In this document: in pieces, positions 475 to 25,785 of the stretch | Layout of the letters: every line of letters starts with the position of its first letter | Position numbering within the stretch: position 1 is the first letter of the stretch | Assembly: GCA_030728325.1 (NCBI GenBank) | Contig: JANQZT010000014.1 | Location: 1 to 42,926, forward strand | DNA: 42,926 bases | From: Pontimonas sp. | GTDB taxonomy: Bacteria; Actinomycetota; Actinomycetes; Actinomycetales; Microbacteriaceae | Direction of reading: 5' to 3' | The notes under the pieces: generated by a model | Databases searched by the model: none | Seen by the model: only the letters and a program-made list of their open reading frames with translations | Told to the model about the DNA's origin: nothing | Translations under genes and position numbers: made by a program

Positions 475-1403
475 GAACTGGCCTTTCCAGAAATTTGGCA
501 CTGCGGACAGAAATACAGCTTACGAGTGGCCATGAGCGCCATCTGGACGTGAGTTCCACACACTCGGCAGGGAAGTCCCTCGCGCTTGTAGACGAAGTAG
601 CGATCCTTCGCCACCCGCAGCGCTCGCTTTCTCCCGGCGGAATCCAAATCGTTTCGAGTCAGCATCACTCCAGTCTTGACGCCATCTGCCAACAGCCCGG
701 ACCAGTCTTTCCAGAGGTCGACAAGCACTTCCTCTGGCAACGTGGAGGCTGGCCGGAAAGGGTCGAGGAGGTGTCGAAACAGGATTTCGGCTCGATAGAC
801 GTTCCCGATCCCACTCACCACAGCTTGATCCATCAACACCACGCCAATGGGTCGCGACGTCGAGGACACTCTTTTCACGAACTCGCGCTGACCACGAATT
901 CCCGTGTCGAGGAGGGGATCAGGGCCGAGCCTGGCGACAACGGACGCTGCTTCTTCGGGCGTGTGGACCTCGCAGGCGGTGGGACCCCGAAGATCCGCCA
1001 CGACCTCAGAGGTTTCGAGCCGCAAGCGCACCGCACCGCGGGGTGCCGGAGGAAACGGTTCATCAGCATCGAAAGACTCTTCGCGCTCCCCCAGACGCCT
1101 CCTCGATGCGCGCGGTGCACCCAGGGACAGGGTTTGTGCGGAACCCGCGCGCACACTGTCGCCCTGGAGCGTCATCACATCCCAAGCTCCATAAATTCCT
1201 AGATGAACGCGCACGATGCGATCGCTCTCGAAGTGAAGAAAGAGTTGCTTACCCCTGGCTTCTGCGCGCTCCAAGACGGAGCCTGAAATAAGCGCTGCAC
1301 CGTCTCGAAACCGGCCTTGTGGGGAGGACGCGAGGATGCTCTGATTCAGAAAGACCTCGCGAAACAGCGCAGCAATGCGATGAACGGTATGACCCTCGGG
1401 CAT
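471..1403 (-). CDS. Fpg/Nei-family DNA glycosylase (Nei2 type)
   Basis: Bifunctional base-excision-repair glycosylase/AP lyase of 310 residues. After Met removal the N-terminus is the catalytic Pro2-Glu3 (PEGHTVHRIA), the hallmark of Fpg/Nei enzymes, and the VH motif fits the Nei2 branch of actinobacteria. The lysine-bearing RGKQLFLHF stretch sits near residue 50, and a zinc finger closes the protein (C279-x2-C282-x16-C299-x2-C302). Nei enzymes remove oxidised bases, mainly pyrimidines, and cut the abasic strand by beta/delta elimination. The gene starts 8 bp after rpiB and overlaps the amidohydrolase downstream, so the three probably form one transcript. The rpiB-nei2 neighbourhood also occurs in mycobacteria. 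Exact substrate range is not visible from sequence. Confidence 0.93.
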   Translation of the reverse strand: MPEGHTVHRIAALFREVFLNQSILASSPQGRFRDGAALISGSVLERAEARGKQLFLHFESDRIVRVHLGIYGAWDVMTLQGDSVRAGSAQTLSLGAPRASRRRLGEREESFDADEPFPPAPRGAVRLRLETSEVVADLRGPTACEVHTPEEAASVVARLGPDPLLDTGIRGQREFVKRVSSTSRPIGVVLMDQAVVSGIGNVYRAEILFRHLLDPFRPASTLPEEVLVDLWKDWSGLLADGVKTGVMLTRNDLDSAGRKRALRVAKDRYFVYKREGLPCRVCGTHVQMALMATRKLYFCPQCQISGKASS

Positions 1404-1411
1404 GGTGCGCC

Positions 1412-1900
1412 CTAGTTCTCGAGAGAGAAACCGGCAATAGCTCCTGTGGTCTCGAACTCAGCCATCTGGTTGATGCGCCGCACATGGCGCTCATCCCCCG
1501 GGAATGGAGTCCTCATGAAGGTGTCGATGAAGAGCAAAGCCTCATCGATGCTGTGTTGCCTCGCACCAATCGCGCAGACATTGGCATTGTTGTGCTCGCG
1601 GGCAAGGACAGCGGTGTCGACGTTCCACACCAACGCAGCCCGCACACCGGCAACCTTGTTGGCAGCCATCTGCTCACCATTTCCCGAGCCGCCGAAGACG
1701 ACACCGAGCGACTCGAGACCAGCCTCGAGGTCAGCAACCACTGCTTTTGCCGCTCGGATGCAGAAACTCGGGTAATCATCCAGGGGATCAAAGGACTCCG
1801 GGCCGTGGTCAATGACCTCGTGACCTTCGAGCTCCAGGTGCTCCGAGAGGTCCTTACTGAATTCCAGGCCAGCATGGTCAGTGGCGATATGAATACGCAT
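1412..1900 (-). CDS. rpiB: Ribose-5-phosphate isomerase B
   Basis: Interconverts ribose-5-phosphate and ribulose-5-phosphate in the pentose phosphate pathway. The 162-residue protein starts with the RpiB signature IATDHAGLE and has the anion-hole loop GGSGNGEQMAANK near residues 70-83. The Glu in GNGEQ is the catalytic base in mycobacterial-type RpiB, replacing the Cys of the E. coli enzyme. REHNNANVCAIGARQH is the conserved C-terminal substrate-binding part. The ATG is preceded by no ribosome binding site but by a TAGACT hexamer 6 nt upstream, so it is probably a leaderless start. It is the first gene of a minus-strand unit with nei2 and the amidohydrolase, divergent from the DivIVA-like gene. 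Confidence 0.95.
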   Translation of the reverse strand: MRIHIATDHAGLEFSKDLSEHLELEGHEVIDHGPESFDPLDDYPSFCIRAAKAVVADLEAGLESLGVVFGGSGNGEQMAANKVAGVRAALVWNVDTAVLAREHNNANVCAIGARQHSIDEALLFIDTFMRTPFPGDERHVRRINQMAEFETTGAIAGFSLEN

Positions 1901-1906
1901 AGTGCC

Positions 1907-1912
1907 AGTCTA
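1907..1912 (-). promoter_or_regulatory. Predicted -10 element of rpiB (leaderless)
   Basis: TAGACT lies exactly 6 nt before the rpiB ATG, so the expected transcription start is the A of the start codon. There is no Shine-Dalgarno sequence in between. Inferred from spacing alone. Confidence 0.5.
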
Positions 1913-1974
1913 TAAAGCAGGCGCATCTCACAAATCGATACCGATTTAGTTTCGGCGATGCGCATCCTGTGGTT

Positions 1975-1992
1975 TTCCCCTATCCTGGGGAA
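1975..1992 (+). promoter_or_regulatory. Palindrome enclosing a -10-like hexamer upstream of the DivIVA-like gene
   Basis: A perfect inverted repeat TTCCCC/GGGGAA flanks TATCCT (1981-1986), which is well placed to be the -10 box of the gene starting at 2015. A second perfect palindrome, GATGCGCATC, sits at 1957-1966. Either could bind a regulator or simply be an RNA hairpin. Role is inferred. Confidence 0.4.
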
Positions 1993-2014
1993 GTCTGTGG
2001 CAAGGAGCCTTGTT

Positions 2015-3154
2015 GTGAGCATTCCTGATTTCCGTCGTGCTGTTCGCGGTTACGACACCGACGACGTCGAGCGCTACGCTCGCGAGCTCTCGGAGCGTCT
2101 GGAGCGCCTGGAAAACGAGCGCGCCGAAAACGCCCGCACCATTCAGCGCCTCACCCGCGACATTCAAGAAGCCAACGAGCGTGCTTCGCGCGCGAAGCCG
2201 AGTTTTGCTGAGCTGGGTTCAGCCTTCGAAGAGACCCTCCGCCTCGCCGAGGAACAATCCCGCAAAATCACCGAGGAAGCAGCCGCAGAAGCGACCGAGG
2301 TTCTTGGAAACGCCCGGAGCGAGGCGACCCGCGTCCGCGAGACCGCAGCGAAAGAGTCTCGCAAGATTTTGTCCGACGCACAGCGCGCAGCTGAGGACCT
2401 CCGCTTGGATAGTGAGCGCGAAGCTGCTCAGCTCCGTCAGCAAGCTGCCGATGAAATCGCGAAGGCCACCAACACCCGCACCCGCGCCGAGCGCGCTGCC
2501 GCGACGATGGTCAGTCAGGCCGAAAAGCAGGTCTCCGAGCTTAAGGCTGAGGCCTCTCGCCAGGTTGAACAGGTCAAGCGTGAAGCATCCGAGCTCTTGC
2601 ACGCCGCGCAGGAGCGCGCGGTAGCGACCGATGCCAGCATTCGTCAGCAAATCGACGAGGCAGAGCGTGCTCGCGCTGCGATCCACGAGGAAGCCGACAA
2701 CTACGCACAGAAGGCCTACCAGCAGGCCGACGAGCACGTCCAGACCGCAGCCAAGCGAGCTCAGGATCTTGGTCAAGAAGCCGACCAGGTTCTGGAGACC
2801 GCCCAGCGCCGTGCTGACGAGCTCACCAAAGAGGCCCGCGGTTACGCGGAGCGCCTGATTTCAGAGACTGTCCAGCGCTCTCGCGCTATCGCTCGCGACA
2901 CCGAGGAACTGGTCAACACCATGCTCTCCGATACGGAAAGCCAGCTTTCGGACATCCGTCGTCAGCAGTCTTACCTCAACGACTATCTCCAACGGATGCG
3001 CCAGGCAGCCACCGAGGTGGACATGGAAATCACCAACATTCAGCCTCCAAAACTGACCGCTGACTCTAAGCTCCTGACCGGCGGACCAGGCGCGGAGCAG
3101 AGCATGCCCGAAGCTGTGCCCGTCACGATTGACATCGAGTCCGACCAGAAGTAG
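2015..3154 (+). CDS. DivIVA-domain coiled-coil protein
   Basis: A 379-residue protein that begins with a DivIVA-like N-terminal segment (IPDFRRAVRGYDTDDVERYA), the part that targets curved membranes in DivIVA/Wag31 proteins. It is followed by almost uninterrupted heptad-repeat coiled coil, rich in Ala, Glu, Arg and Gln, to about residue 340. The C-terminus has two short Pro-containing stretches. Proteins of this build organise polar growth or act as intermediate-filament-like scaffolds in actinobacteria (Scy/FilP-like or Wag31 paralogues); which one this is cannot be said. The GTG at 2015 is chosen over an earlier ATG because AAGGAG (2002-2007) lies 7 nt before it and the DivIVA homology begins there. 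It is divergent from rpiB. Confidence 0.85.
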   Translation: MSIPDFRRAVRGYDTDDVERYARELSERLERLENERAENARTIQRLTRDIQEANERASRAKPSFAELGSAFEETLRLAEEQSRKITEEAAAEATEVLGNARSEATRVRETAAKESRKILSDAQRAAEDLRLDSEREAAQLRQQAADEIAKATNTRTRAERAAATMVSQAEKQVSELKAEASRQVEQVKREASELLHAAQERAVATDASIRQQIDEAERARAAIHEEADNYAQKAYQQADEHVQTAAKRAQDLGQEADQVLETAQRRADELTKEARGYAERLISETVQRSRAIARDTEELVNTMLSDTESQLSDIRRQQSYLNDYLQRMRQAATEVDMEITNIQPPKLTADSKLLTGGPGAEQSMPEAVPVTIDIESDQK

Positions 3155-17682: not shown

Positions 17683-18141
17683 ATGGAGCCACTGCAGATT
17701 GCCCTGATTGTGGGAGCGTTAGTCGTCCTGGCGACGCTCCTGGGATTTGCCTGGCAAAACAAACAGGGAGCCGTGTCGAGGAGAGCACAGCCCTCACTCC
17801 CCGCCGATGTGCCACTCGATCTCGTAGATTCCACCGCGGTCATCACACTCCTCCAATTCTCAGGGCCTTTCTGTTCCTACTGCGCGGCCATGCGCGGCGT
17901 CCTGGGTGCTACAGCCGCCTCCAGCGAAGGTCAGGTGGCTCACCGAGAAATCGACATCACCGACTACCCGGAGCTGACCGCTTCGCTCAAGGTGTCTCAA
18001 ACCCCGACCACATTTGTCGTGATCAGAACTGGCCACATCATTTCTCGCATCCGTGGGGCAGCAAAGCCCCCTGTCGTTGCCGAGGAAGTTCATCAAGCAC
18101 TCACCACACGAAAGGCACAATCTGATGAGTACCTCATCTAA
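17683..18141 (+). CDS. Membrane-anchored thioredoxin-like protein
   Basis: A 152-residue protein with one N-terminal membrane helix (residues 4-24, LQIALIVGALVVLATLLGFAW) and a thioredoxin-fold domain outside the membrane. The active-site motif is FCSYC (C64-x2-C67) in place of the standard WCGPC, and the cis-proline loop is SQTPTTFVV near residue 107. It is therefore probably a thiol-disulfide oxidoreductase, though the altered motif may shift its redox potential or partner. It overlaps the following DUF4395 gene by 17 bp and is divergent from thyX. Together with DUF4395 and OsmC it looks like a thiol stress unit. Confidence 0.85.
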   Translation: MEPLQIALIVGALVVLATLLGFAWQNKQGAVSRRAQPSLPADVPLDLVDSTAVITLLQFSGPFCSYCAAMRGVLGATAASSEGQVAHREIDITDYPELTASLKVSQTPTTFVVIRTGHIISRIRGAAKPPVVAEEVHQALTTRKAQSDEYLI

Positions 18142-18619
18142 CTCCCCCGCGGGCATTGACCCCCGCAGCCCACGATTTGGCGCAGGCATCACCGCCATCT
18201 TGTTGTTGATCACCATCGCACTGGGGCTGGGGGCTGAAGCCTCAGGTGGAACGCTCTCGCAGCGCGCACTGGAGCCGGGGTTCTTGCTTCTCGCTGCCAT
18301 CACGGCCTTGTTTGCCTGGGGCGCGTTTGCCGGGGTCAAACGCCACCCCTACGGCGCGATCTACAAGGCAGTGCTTCGTCCTCGACTCGGCCCACCTGCC
18401 TACTTAGAAGAGCCAGAGCCTCCTACCTTCGCCCAGTTGGTGGGTTTCCTGGTCTCTGTCACCGGTGTGGTGCTGCACCTACTGGGAGTCCCCTACGGTC
18501 TCGTGATCGCCGCGGGTGTTGCCTTCATCGCGGCATTTCTCAATTCGGTGTTCGGGTTATGCCTCGGGTGCGAAATGTATGCACTCCTCGTTCGAGCGCG
18601 GATTATTCGCCCGTCCTAG
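18125..18619 (+). CDS. DUF4395-family membrane protein
   Basis: A 164-residue membrane protein with hydrophobic segments near residues 22-38, 50-66, 102-118 and 122-140. It has the DUF4395 feature of an N-terminal DPRSPRFGAGITA and a C-terminal CLGC motif in SVFGLCLGCEMYALL. The CxxC could exchange disulfides with the thioredoxin-like partner whose gene overlaps it (ATG inside the preceding reading frame). DUF4395 genes are commonly next to thioredoxin or rhodanese genes in actinobacteria; the biochemical function is unknown. It ends 91 bp before the osmC-type gene. Confidence 0.85.
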   Translation: MSTSSNSPAGIDPRSPRFGAGITAILLLITIALGLGAEASGGTLSQRALEPGFLLLAAITALFAWGAFAGVKRHPYGAIYKAVLRPRLGPPAYLEEPEPPTFAQLVGFLVSVTGVVLHLLGVPYGLVIAAGVAFIAAFLNSVFGLCLGCEMYALLVRARIIRPS

Positions 18620-18710
18620 GTGTCTCGGTGAGAATGCCCTGAGAGGTGTCGCATTAACACTGAGATAGTGGTTCGATTAGGTCACACTCACCCTTTGGAA
18701 GGATTACCTC

Positions 18711-19136
18711 ATGGCAGTCACTAGCGAAGCACGAACTCAGTGGTCAGGTTCTCTCGTGGAGGGATCTGGCTCCACCGCTCTGGTGTCCTCCGGCGCAGCA
18801 ACCTTCGACGTCACTTGGGCTGCACGTAGCGAAGGACAAACTGGAATCACCAACCCTGAAGAGCTTCTGGGCGCAGCGCACTCAGCGTGTTACTCGATGG
18901 CGCTCTCCCACGCCCTCAGCGGTGCGGGCACACCTCCGGAATCCCTCGATGTGACCGCGGCGGTGACATTTGTTCCCGGCGAAGGCGTGACGGGGTCCCA
19001 CCTTCTCGTCTCCGCAAGCATCCCCGGCATGGACGAGCAGACCTTCCAAGGATTTGCGGAGGACGCCAAAGCGAACTGCCCCATTTCGAAAGCACTGGCT
19101 GGAGTCCCGATCACCCTTGAGGCGACACTGCAGTAA
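18711..19136 (+). CDS. OsmC/Ohr-family peroxiredoxin
   Basis: A 141-residue thiol peroxidase of the OsmC fold that reduces organic hydroperoxides. The peroxidatic Cys is in AAHSACYSMALSHAL (near residue 62) and the resolving Cys in KANCPISKAL (near residue 125). NPEELLGAAHSACYS is a strong OsmC signature. The ATG has a good ribosome binding site, GGAAGGA (18697-18703), 7 nt upstream. The stop overlaps the ATG of the SDR gene (TAATG), so the two are coupled. It lies downstream of the thioredoxin-like and DUF4395 genes, possibly as part of the same redox unit. Confidence 0.93.
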   Translation: MAVTSEARTQWSGSLVEGSGSTALVSSGAATFDVTWAARSEGQTGITNPEELLGAAHSACYSMALSHALSGAGTPPESLDVTAAVTFVPGEGVTGSHLLVSASIPGMDEQTFQGFAEDAKANCPISKALAGVPITLEATLQ

Positions 19137-21298: not shown

Positions 21299-21574
21299 CT
21301 AGGACAAGCTCAGGAACAACTTCTCCAGATCATCCACGCTCAGGTCACCGTCTTTGGTGGGCTTGCCGTCCTCCGCGACGCACTCTTTCATGGCGGTCGC
21401 AATGATGGCAAACCCGGCCTTATCCAGCGCGCTGGATACCGCGGAGAGTTGGGTGACGACCGAGCGACAATCTTTGCCCTGCTCGACCATCGAAATGACA
21501 GCACCGAGTTGCCCCTGTGCGCGACGTAGCCGGTTGATGACCGGTTTCATGTCTGTGGGTGTGTCCTCTGCCAT
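21299..21574 (-). CDS. CsoR-family repressor, persulfide-sensing (CstR-like) by key residues
   Basis: All-helical DUF156/CsoR-family repressor of 91 residues (INRLRRAQGQLGAVISMVEQ is the DNA-binding helix region). Copper-sensing CsoR uses Cys36, His61 and Cys65. Here the numbering matches exactly, with Cys36 and Cys65 kept but Ala at 61 and Asp at 35. Loss of the His ligand with both Cys retained is what separates CstR (per- and polysulfide sensor) from copper sensors. It follows the disulfide reductase/rhodanese gene by 21 bp in the same unit, which fits sulfane-sulfur sensing. A palindromic site on the unit's promoter suggests autoregulation. Family certain; ligand inferred. Confidence 0.9.
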   Translation of the reverse strand: MAEDTPTDMKPVINRLRRAQGQLGAVISMVEQGKDCRSVVTQLSAVSSALDKAGFAIIATAMKECVAEDGKPTKDGDLSVDDLEKLFLSLS

Positions 21575-21595: not shown

Positions 21596-23260
21596 CTAGG
21601 GTGTGCCAACAAGCTCTGGTTGGGTGGTCGCTGCCATTCCCATTTGCCAGGTGAGGTAGCCACCATCGAGGTTTGCAACCTCGATACCGTGCTGCATCAA
21701 GATGCTGGCAGCGGTGTGGCCTCGCTGCCCCACACGACACGACACGATGACTTTCTCTCCCCGGAAAGAATCGACGTTCTCCCGAAGCTCGTCCAAGGTG
21801 ACCAGCTCTGAACCGGGGATGGCTCCTCGGGTGTATTCACCATCGGTGCGCACATCCACCAGGCGCCACCCGTCTGCCATCAACGTCTCTACCTCATGCC
21901 ACTGCACCGCATTCTCGCCGGTGGCGCGGTTCTCGTTGACATAGCCGAGCATGTTGACGGGGTCCTTGGCTGACGCGAACTGTGGCGCGTAGGACAGCTC
22001 CAGATCAATCAAATCTGTTGCGGTCATTCCACCAGCCATGGCAGTAGCGATGACGTCGATGCGTTTGTCGACACCTTCTTCACCCACAGCCTGAACACCC
22101 AAAATGAGATCGGTCTCCGGATCGACGATGAGTTTCATCGCCATTTGCACTGCATCGGGGTAGTACCCGGCGTGATTGATGGGGTGCGTGTGAATGATTC
22201 GCATCGCTCGGCCCTTCATTCCCAAGACCCGCTCGGTGTAGCCGGTTGAGGCAGCGGCCATTCCGAAGAAGCCGACGATCGAGGTCCCAAAAGCGGTCAC
22301 CGCGTGTGCTGGTCGGCCGGCAATCGAGTCGGCAGCGAGACGACCGTGGCGGTTCGCTAACCCCGCCAAGGGCACAAGGCTGTAGCCATCGGGGCGCTTT
22401 TTTTGCGCCACATCGCCCACGGCCCAAATGTGGGGGTCAGAGGTTCGTTGCTGATCATCGACAACCACACCTCCCGTATCTCCCATCTCCAGTCCCGCTG
22501 CTACGGCCAGCTCAATGTTGGGGCGAGCTCCCACGGCAACAACAGTCATGTCGGCCTCGATGGTGGTGCCATCTGCGAGCGTCACACCAGATTCTGTGAT
22601 GGCCGATACCTGCGCGGAGAGTCGAACATCCAACCCTTGGAAGCGAGCACGCTCCACCAGGGGCCAGGCCATCTCCACGTCCAAGGTGGGCATAAGCTGA
22701 GGCAGAGCCTCCACCAGAGTGGTGGCAATTCCTCGGTGGACGAGATTCTCGGCCAGCTCCAACCCAATGAATCCACCGCCCACGACGATGGCGCTGCTGG
22801 CTGTCTCTGCCGCAGCAATGAGACGGTCCATGTCGTCCAAGTTCCACAAGACGTGGGCATCCTCAACCCCGGGGATGGGAGGCCTAAACGGAGTTGATCC
22901 TGGGCTCAACACCAGTGCGTCATACGCAATCTCCCGCGACTCTCCGGTTTCGAGATTGGTGACCGAGACGGTCTTCCGGTCTCGATTGATGGCGGTAGCT
23001 TCGGTGCGCAAGTGAACGTCAATGTTGAATCGCTTCTTCAGCTGCGCTGGCTGCTGAAGCACCAGAGAACCGCGATGGGGGATGACACCACCTACGTGAT
23101 AGGGAAGGCCACAGTTCGCAAACGACACAGCGCCACCACGTTCGATGACGATGATTTCGGCGCTCTCATGAATTCGGCGGAGTCTGGTGGCTGCGGACAT
23201 TCCACCGGCCACGCCTCCGATAATCACAACGGTCTGAGGGAGTGTTGATGCTGAAGTCAT
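21596..23260 (-). CDS. CoA-disulfide reductase / rhodanese fusion (CoADR-RHD type)
   Basis: FAD-dependent pyridine-nucleotide disulfide oxidoreductase of 554 residues with a C-terminal rhodanese domain. The FAD motif IIGGVAGGMSAATRLRR starts near residue 13. The single redox-active Cys50 in SFANCGLPYHVGG marks the CoADR/NADH-oxidase branch. The second dinucleotide motif is VVGGGFIGLELAE near residue 155, and LSYAPQFASAKDPVN is the conserved dimer-domain motif. The rhodanese domain (from about residue 460) ends in the active loop SCRVGQRG with Cys508. Such fusions reduce CoA or protein persulfides and polysulfides. The ATG is preceded by TATACT 6 nt upstream, so it is leaderless, with a CsoR-family operator over the promoter. 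Confidence 0.94.
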   Translation of the reverse strand: MTSASTLPQTVVIIGGVAGGMSAATRLRRIHESAEIIVIERGGAVSFANCGLPYHVGGVIPHRGSLVLQQPAQLKKRFNIDVHLRTEATAINRDRKTVSVTNLETGESREIAYDALVLSPGSTPFRPPIPGVEDAHVLWNLDDMDRLIAAAETASSAIVVGGGFIGLELAENLVHRGIATTLVEALPQLMPTLDVEMAWPLVERARFQGLDVRLSAQVSAITESGVTLADGTTIEADMTVVAVGARPNIELAVAAGLEMGDTGGVVVDDQQRTSDPHIWAVGDVAQKKRPDGYSLVPLAGLANRHGRLAADSIAGRPAHAVTAFGTSIVGFFGMAAASTGYTERVLGMKGRAMRIIHTHPINHAGYYPDAVQMAMKLIVDPETDLILGVQAVGEEGVDKRIDVIATAMAGGMTATDLIDLELSYAPQFASAKDPVNMLGYVNENRATGENAVQWHEVETLMADGWRLVDVRTDGEYTRGAIPGSELVTLDELRENVDSFRGEKVIVSCRVGQRGHTAASILMQHGIEVANLDGGYLTWQMGMAATTQPELVGTP

Positions 23261-23266
23261 GGGGAC

Positions 23267-23272
23267 AGTATA
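23267..23272 (-). promoter_or_regulatory. -10 element of the CoADR-RHD/cstR unit (leaderless)
   Basis: TATACT, a near-consensus hexamer, ends 6 nt before the ATG at 23260. The gap GTCCCC has no ribosome binding site. It touches the operator palindrome at 23272-23287. Confidence 0.65.
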
Positions 23273-25311: not shown

Positions 25312-25785
25312 TCAATCTGAGGTGGCCACCCGAGTCAAGGGCTCGTGGCGAACAGGGAAGTTGACCGAGTTGGCAATAAAGCACAGTTGACTCGCGCGAT
25401 GGTGAAGGTCTGGCACCACGGCGGGATCGCCCTCAGAAATCTCAATGTGGGGCCGAAGCGTCACCTCGGTCACGTGCCCAGAACCGTCCGGGCGGGTTTC
25501 CAGGATCCCCGACGCCTGGTCTTCGTAGTGTTCAACAATCACTCCAGCGGCTTGAGCGACGTGGAGAAAGCTCAGCATGTGGCATTGCGAGAGTGCCGCA
25601 ATCAAGAGCTCTTCCGGGTTCCACCGGGTGACATCACCGTGGAACGCTTTGTCGGAAGATCCTTGAATCTCCTGCTTACCGTCCGCGCGAATTACGTGCG
25701 CTCGTGAGTACGCCTTGTAGTCACTGGTGCCGGATCCCAAGTTCCCCATCCACAGGGTTTCCAGCGCAAAGTGATGGCGATTCAT
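25312..25785 (-). CDS. OsmC-family protein (second copy)
   Basis: A 157-residue OsmC-fold protein, distinct from the copy at 18.7 kb. The conserved Cys residues are in AALSQCHMLSFLHVA (near residue 68) and ASQLCFIANSV (near 133), and WNPEELLIAALSQCHML is the family signature. Members reduce organic peroxides through these two cysteines. The ATG follows TAGAGT by 6 nt, so it is probably leaderless. It lies divergent from gabT and 60 bp upstream of the FKBP gene on the same strand. Confidence 0.9.
   Translation of the reverse strand: MNRHHFALETLWMGNLGSGTSDYKAYSRAHVIRADGKQEIQGSSDKAFHGDVTRWNPEELLIAALSQCHMLSFLHVAQAAGVIVEHYEDQASGILETRPDGSGHVTEVTLRPHIEISEGDPAVVPDLHHRASQLCFIANSVNFPVRHEPLTRVATSD

Follow-up and report, generated by a model that had tools for sequence, protein, structure and literature searches.

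The window, 42,926 nucleotides of DNA analysed as a whole, carries a small repressor gene and a reductase gene side by side on the minus strand, with a palindromic operator upstream of the reductase:

21299..21574, minus strand: cstR-like repressor gene of the CsoR/DUF156 family (C36/A61/C65; 91 aa), assigned from PF02583, residues and tree
21596..23260, minus strand: gene for a CoA-disulfide/CoA-persulfide reductase with a C-terminal rhodanese domain (CoADR-RHD, CoAPR-like; 554 aa), assigned from Pfam and PDB matches
23267..23272, minus strand: TATACT, a -10-like hexamer picked out by eye, which overlaps the operator edge and lies 6 nt before the reductase start codon
23272..23287, no strand assigned: CsoR/CstR-type operator ATACCCCCTAGGGTAT, an exact ATACCN6GGTAT match

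The genome to which the window belongs measures 1.24 Mb and is 91.8% complete; the closest contigs found are from Pontimonas and Microbacteriaceae MAGs, with the best protein 97% identical.

The repressor (here called CstR) matches PF02583 by sequence with an E-value of 8.5e-23 (81 bits against a cut-off of 22.8), and a ribosome-site-like stretch, AAAGGAGA, lies upstream of its ATG. Its residues 6-67 align in phmmer to residues 6-67 of PDB 2hh7, a protein named CsoR that is presumably from M. tuberculosis; the numbering of CstR thus agrees with that of CsoR. An earlier note on this DNA had described a gapless match to the mycobacterial numbering, with Cys36 and Cys65 kept, Ala at position 61 and Asp at position 35, and it was right about the residues and, over positions 6-67, about the register. 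CstR has D35, C36, A61, E64 and C65; that is, it retains both cysteines of the dithiol site, which in the CsoR family sits between subunits, and has Ala in place of the His61 of the copper site.

The stop codon of the reductase gene is 21 nt upstream of the cstR ATG on the same strand, so the two genes look like one operon. The Pfam domains of the reductase are Pyr_redox_2, Pyr_redox_dim and Rhodanese, as expected from the description of the partner in the same note as a disulfide reductase with a rhodanese domain. Its best solved relatives are 3icr (E 1.1e-140), a CoADR-RHD that we take to be from B. anthracis, and the E. faecalis CoA-persulfide reductase 8a56 (E 6.6e-132), both of which it matches over nearly its full length. 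The only cysteines of the protein, C50 and C508, align with cysteines of both structures, one in the sequence FANCGLPY and the other in the rhodanese loop, so that both catalytic cysteines are kept; the catalytic pair of the E. faecalis enzyme is reported to be C42 and C508 (PMC9405070). With CDR and rhodanese domains and two catalytic cysteines present, the partner is predicted to have CoA-persulfide reductase activity. It falls below the curated NCBIfam cut-off for CoA-disulfide reductases: the match to TIGR03385 has an E-value of 3.3e-119, yet scores 398.6 bits against 578.8.

Across the operator from the reductase, and divergent from it, is an MpaB/Lcp-type oxygenase gene (PF09995; 23327-24265, plus strand), which may share the operator. 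All 12 of the CoADR sites examined in other genomes of the genus have this gene; the 66 loci that are not of the Pontimonas type gave no match to it.

Operator sites and the predicted regulon

The operator ends 11 nt upstream of the CoADR-RHD start codon. Its motif, ATACC-N6-GGTAT, has been published as the ScCsoR site (PMC7533328); the window has one copy, and 100 shuffles gave none. The window CstR is thus, as judged from sequence, associated with an operator before putative sulfane-sulfur genes. The overlap between the operator and the TATACT hexamer would suit repression through promoter occlusion, and it is possible that the CoADR-RHD transcript is leaderless or nearly so.

There are five exact sites in the whole window genome and none in the reversed control, and 94 in 19 genomes of the genus (window genome included) against two in the control. 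One-mismatch sites were discarded: 10 further sites were found against 13 in the control, and they therefore look like chance. The 94 sites comprise the window genome's own five, 75 that were examined in 15 other genomes and 14 (in G010, G012 and G017) that were left out. Most of the 75 (61) precede orthologues of the same five genes that follow the sites in the window genome, at narrow spacings measured to start codons extrapolated from the matches:

CoADR-RHD, first gene of the reductase-cstR operon (in the window): 12 genus sites, 11 nt before the gene in 11 of them and 54 nt in one
Thioredoxin (window genome, contig C40): 15 genus sites, 25-28 nt before the gene
Rhodanese with a lipoprotein-like signal (contig C75): 15 genus sites, 38-47 nt before the gene
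38-aa Cys-rich protein (contig C74): 11 genus sites, 39-49 nt before the gene
DUF4395 membrane protein (contig C46, with a divergent gene judged by eye to be pseudouridine-5'-phosphate-glycosidase-like): 8 genus sites, 6-10 nt before the gene in seven of them and 19 nt in one

Because the sites for each gene are in different genomes, these counts are also genome counts out of 15, many of the 15 genomes being incomplete. The operator is not universal, since 12 of 80 CstR-like loci (1 of 14 of the Pontimonas type and 11 of 66 others) do not have an exact site in the DNA fetched for them.

The remaining 14 of the 75 sites are unassigned. Eight, sorted by eye, have C-run/G-run cores: three precede short YgaP-like membrane proteins with 42-61% mutual identity (L151, L169 and L190; PF11127 for L169), two precede SLAC1-like transporters (L154 in G005 and L171 in G003, with Pfam run on L171 only), which are perhaps sulfite exporters, two lie 67 nt (L161) and 68 nt (L148) before ORFs that look catalase-peroxidase-like by eye, and one precedes a lipoprotein-like ORF (L204). 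The other six have different cores; five are inside longer ORFs, and the flank of L215 resembles those of L160 and L186, which appear argG-like by eye.

The window also contains a row of three genes (17683-19136, plus strand): thioredoxin-like, DUF4395 and OsmC. Of 14 Pontimonas-type loci, 12 have all three, and the remaining two are truncated at this point. The row has no exact CstR operator; the DUF4395 gene with an operator is the separate one on C46. A second OsmC-like protein (25312-25785, minus strand) matches four NCBIfam peroxiredoxin models, each with a score under the cut-off.

Some features of the predicted regulon bear on what the repressor might sense. CstR could be a dithiol repressor that has a different oxidant or electrophile as its physiological signal (nitroxyl, hypothiocyanite, HOCl or disulfide stress), with sulfane sulfur as one trigger among several. 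The thioredoxin among the predicted targets and the sites before catalase-peroxidase-like ORFs in two genus genomes would fit such a role, as would reports that link sulfide homeostasis in S. aureus with nitroxyl (PMC5480029) and that describe a thiol-specific response to hypothiocyanite (PMC10715087). The conserved targets, however, are mainly sulfurtransferase and persulfide-reductase genes, and we regard this alternative as unlikely.

The small Cys-rich protein, MCSPARCNRCSKVTWTGCGEHIEQALAGFGPDELCKCA, has 38 residues and a GTG start. It has no Pfam match up to an E-value of 0.1, its NCBIfam match is below the cut-off (13.8 versus 35 bits), and the best match of its profile to the PDB has an E-value of 0.23. 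In an alignment of 13 relatives, M1, C2, C7, C10, K12, T14, G17, C18, G19, H21 and C35 are invariant, and the family follows the pattern MCxxVxCxxCGKxTWxGCGxHVxxVM..VPxxxRCxC over about 38-66 residues. Similar short Cys proteins exist in fungi. Of the 66 CstR-like loci that are not of the Pontimonas type, 18 have a gene for the protein no more than 5 kb away; in several (e.g., L083-L085, L093 and L094), this gene and cstR diverge from a common operator. A class-wide search found it in 55 of 148 genomes, in two of them only at E-values of 6e-4 to 1e-3. At 30 class-level loci, a CstR-type gene lies within about 1.5 kb in 11 and an exact operator within 300 bp upstream in seven, with no sites in the reversed control; most class-level copies therefore show no exact site.

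Because the protein is Cys-rich and predicted to be persulfide-regulated, it might perhaps serve as a carrier, a sink or a zinc-bound switch. We lean toward the view that this widespread actinobacterial family is under CstR control and has a dedicated part in the persulfide response, and that the DUF4395 membrane proteins are a further component, so far unrecognised. Neither appeared in a persulfide context in the titles and abstract beginnings covered by our literature search, most subscription journals being outside its scope. What is new in this work is the regulon that we predict, and in particular its unnamed small Cys protein, which turns up repeatedly next to CstR genes in Actinomycetota.

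Copper or sulfur

Two questions related to the signal are: (i) whether CstR groups with copper sensors or with persulfide sensors; and (ii) whether the residue at position 61 goes together with the kind of genes nearby. In the tree, CstR lies inside a CstR-like group of 81 rows (98/89*), the sister of which is the pneumococcal CstR (95/91*), which has a long branch and is placed less surely. The 32 copper CsoR rows form a separate group (88/76). In the 80 loci of CstR relatives, which were chosen by likeness to CstR, both cysteines are always present and His61 never is; in the 30 copper-type loci, which are high-scoring PF02583 members from relatives and were chosen by Pfam score, Y35, C36, H61 and C65 are present in every case. 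Among the 66 CstR-like loci outside the Pontimonas type, copA/copZ lies within 5 kb of three and within 1.5 kb of none, and a rhodanese/CoADR/PDO match is absent within 5 kb in five. A copA/copZ match is absent in 5 of the 30 copper-type loci.

A fairer sample, not picked by likeness to CstR, comes from relatives at the family and order level: 90 of the 118 non-genus PF02583 matches, together with flanks of about 1.5 kb wherever the contig was long enough; the 28 omitted matches all score 92-104 bits, which is the range of the copper type. His61 is present in 51 of the 90 loci and absent in 39. The His61 loci have copA/copZ neighbours in 38 cases and a rhodanese/CoADR/PDO gene, an operator or a small Cys protein in none, with a thioredoxin match in one; the loci that do not have His61 have rhodanese/CoADR/PDO neighbours in 31 cases, an operator in 21, a small Cys protein in 12 and copA/copZ in none. 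No marker gene of any kind is present in 13 of the 51 and 5 of the 39. Fisher p-values, uncorrected for the relatedness of the genomes, are 1.8e-14 for copper genes, 4.7e-17 for sulfur genes, 3.7e-10 for the operator and 1.4e-5 for the small Cys protein.

The same sample contains a third kind, with the pattern Y35-C36-H61-T64-H65, in which the second Cys has become His. It comprises twelve members of the CsoR family, all from the bacterial family to which the window belongs (L255, L268, L272, L273, L275, L276, L283, L286, L290, L292, L298 and L303). Six of the twelve have copA/copZ nearby, and the pattern is possibly a variant metal site.

The copper alternative is that CstR is a CsoR with an altered site, which senses Cu(I) through its two cysteines and controls copper homeostasis. 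It belongs to the same family and has a similar palindromic operator, and the genome has CopZ-like and CopA-like genes (contig C48, L128, about 548-2792, minus strand) with cstR at 21299-21574 as the only PF02583 gene found. At least one PF02583 gene is present in 92 of the 99 genomes searched (window genome included), and because the window genome is 91.8% complete, a second CsoR could be missing from it. Against this alternative, however, His61 is absent and CstR is outside the copper group; in addition, the C48 contig has no operator site, even at one mismatch, and copA/copZ lies within about 1.5 kb of 0 of the 39 relatives that do not have His61. We rejected it on A61, the tree, the sulfur-gene neighbour and the absence of an operator on C48, and consider it very improbable. 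A formaldehyde sensor like FrmR was also rejected (separate long branch; NCBIfam 40.5 versus 133 bits; H61 in the E. coli FrmR reference), as was RcnR (separate long branch; 22.5 versus 138 bits; H61 in the E. coli RcnR reference).

CstR thus groups with CstR-like proteins and outside the copper clade in the tree that the earlier note had put forward as a check, and the central idea of that note, a persulfide sensor concerned with sulfur rather than copper, draws support from the tree, from the split of neighbours by His61 and from operator sites before predicted sulfur-relay genes. The signal of the repressor is very probably reactive sulfur and not copper. The operator, the regulon and the characterised actinobacterial homologue go beyond what that note contained.

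Comparison with known systems and a proposed mechanism

The copper CsoR proteins 4adz, 4m1p and 2hh7, the first of which we take to be from S. lividans and the second from G. thermodenitrificans, share the fold, family and operator style of CstR. Unlike CstR, the copper-type relatives, in common with 4m1p, have Tyr35/Cys36/His61/Cys65, and have copA/copZ neighbours. The persulfide-responsive members of the family are nearer. In S. coelicolor, a circuit of a CsoR-like regulator, a persulfide dioxygenase (PDO), a rhodanese and a sulfite transporter is reported to be repressed by ScCsoR; repression is released by polysulfide, with persulfidation of Cys37 and a requirement for both cysteines (PMC7533328). 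We compared CstR with this regulator (SCO0620) through Streptomyces orthologues (e.g., L107 and L098), two of which are 58% and 59% identical to it over 85 residues and have Cys37/Cys66. The resemblances are two cysteines one register apart (37/66 versus 36/65), the ATACC-N6-GGTAT site and rhodanese-type neighbours; at L107, as judged by eye, cstR has a divergent rhodanese gene on one side and TauE-like and metallo-beta-lactamase/rhodanese (PDO-like) genes on the other. The systems differ in that Streptomyces uses a PDO-rhodanese, a sulfite transporter and a rhodanese, whereas the window carries CoADR-RHD. A search of the window genome with the L107 PDO-like protein found no PDO, its sole match being the rhodanese domain of CoADR-RHD, a weak sign of PDO absence given an incomplete genome and one Streptomyces query. 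The predicted response is therefore reductive, through the reductase and thioredoxin, and not oxidative.

The comparison with CstR of E. faecalis, S. aureus and S. pneumoniae was made with the pneumococcal sequence only. Like these proteins, the window CstR is probably a dithiol CsoR-family repressor; it shares 37% identity with the pneumococcal chain 7mq3 across 73 residues, and has Ala at position 61, where 7mq1 has Asn. In E. faecalis, CstR is reported to control the CoA-persulfide reductase (PMC9405070), and the window CstR has a CoAPR-like operon partner. The window thus joins two known arrangements, an actinobacterial CstR and a CoAPR-like partner.

This pairing raises the question of whether the repressor might respond to CoA persulfide specifically, and report the state of the CoA pool and not sulfane sulfur in general. 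A CoAPR-like operon partner, the specificity reported for the E. faecalis enzyme toward CoASSH (PMC9405070) and the single Streptomyces PDO-like query that found no PDO-like protein in the genome all speak for such a sensor. Several relatives in other Actinomycetota, however, adjoin a PDO instead of CoADR, so that the link between sensor and CoA enzyme is not a fixed one, and we give the idea a low probability. A more general caution comes from TTHA1953 of Thermus, which according to its authors is closest to CstR and which is reported to keep its DNA binding with NaHS (PMC10318464); control of sulfur genes therefore does not prove persulfide sensing.

We conclude with high confidence, from sequence evidence, that the window protein is a CstR-type repressor which would respond to persulfide or polysulfide and control a sulfane-sulfur regulon of five targets. 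We infer its DNA binding, repression, effector and thiol chemistry as follows. The reduced repressor oligomer would bind promoter-overlapping ATACC-N6-GGTAT sites. With a rise in sulfane sulfur, as persulfide or polysulfide, Cys36 would become persulfidated, and would then react with, or be stabilised by, Cys65 of the partner subunit; the published mechanisms differ on this point, with a persulfide at Cys37 only reported for ScCsoR and a cross-link for S. aureus CstR (PMC7533328). The affinity of the repressor for DNA would drop and the regulon would be expressed, namely the CoA-persulfide reductase with cstR, the thioredoxin, the rhodanese lipoprotein, the DUF4395 membrane protein and the small Cys-rich protein. 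Together these products may reduce, relay or hold sulfane sulfur, which would close a feedback loop.

Finally, we note that the protein, a metal-sensitive repressor by its Pfam name, most likely senses persulfide. Sensors of this kind are known, so our result amounts mainly to a correct annotation. The sensor gene is the sole CsoR-family gene found in a 1.24-Mb genome that is 91.8% complete, and we suggest that a lineage with a small genome devotes a regulator of its own to sulfane sulfur and has kept a small regulon for it across the genus. The predicted regulon offers a testable first role for the DUF4395 proteins and for a conserved small Cys-rich protein that has no name in Pfam or NCBIfam.
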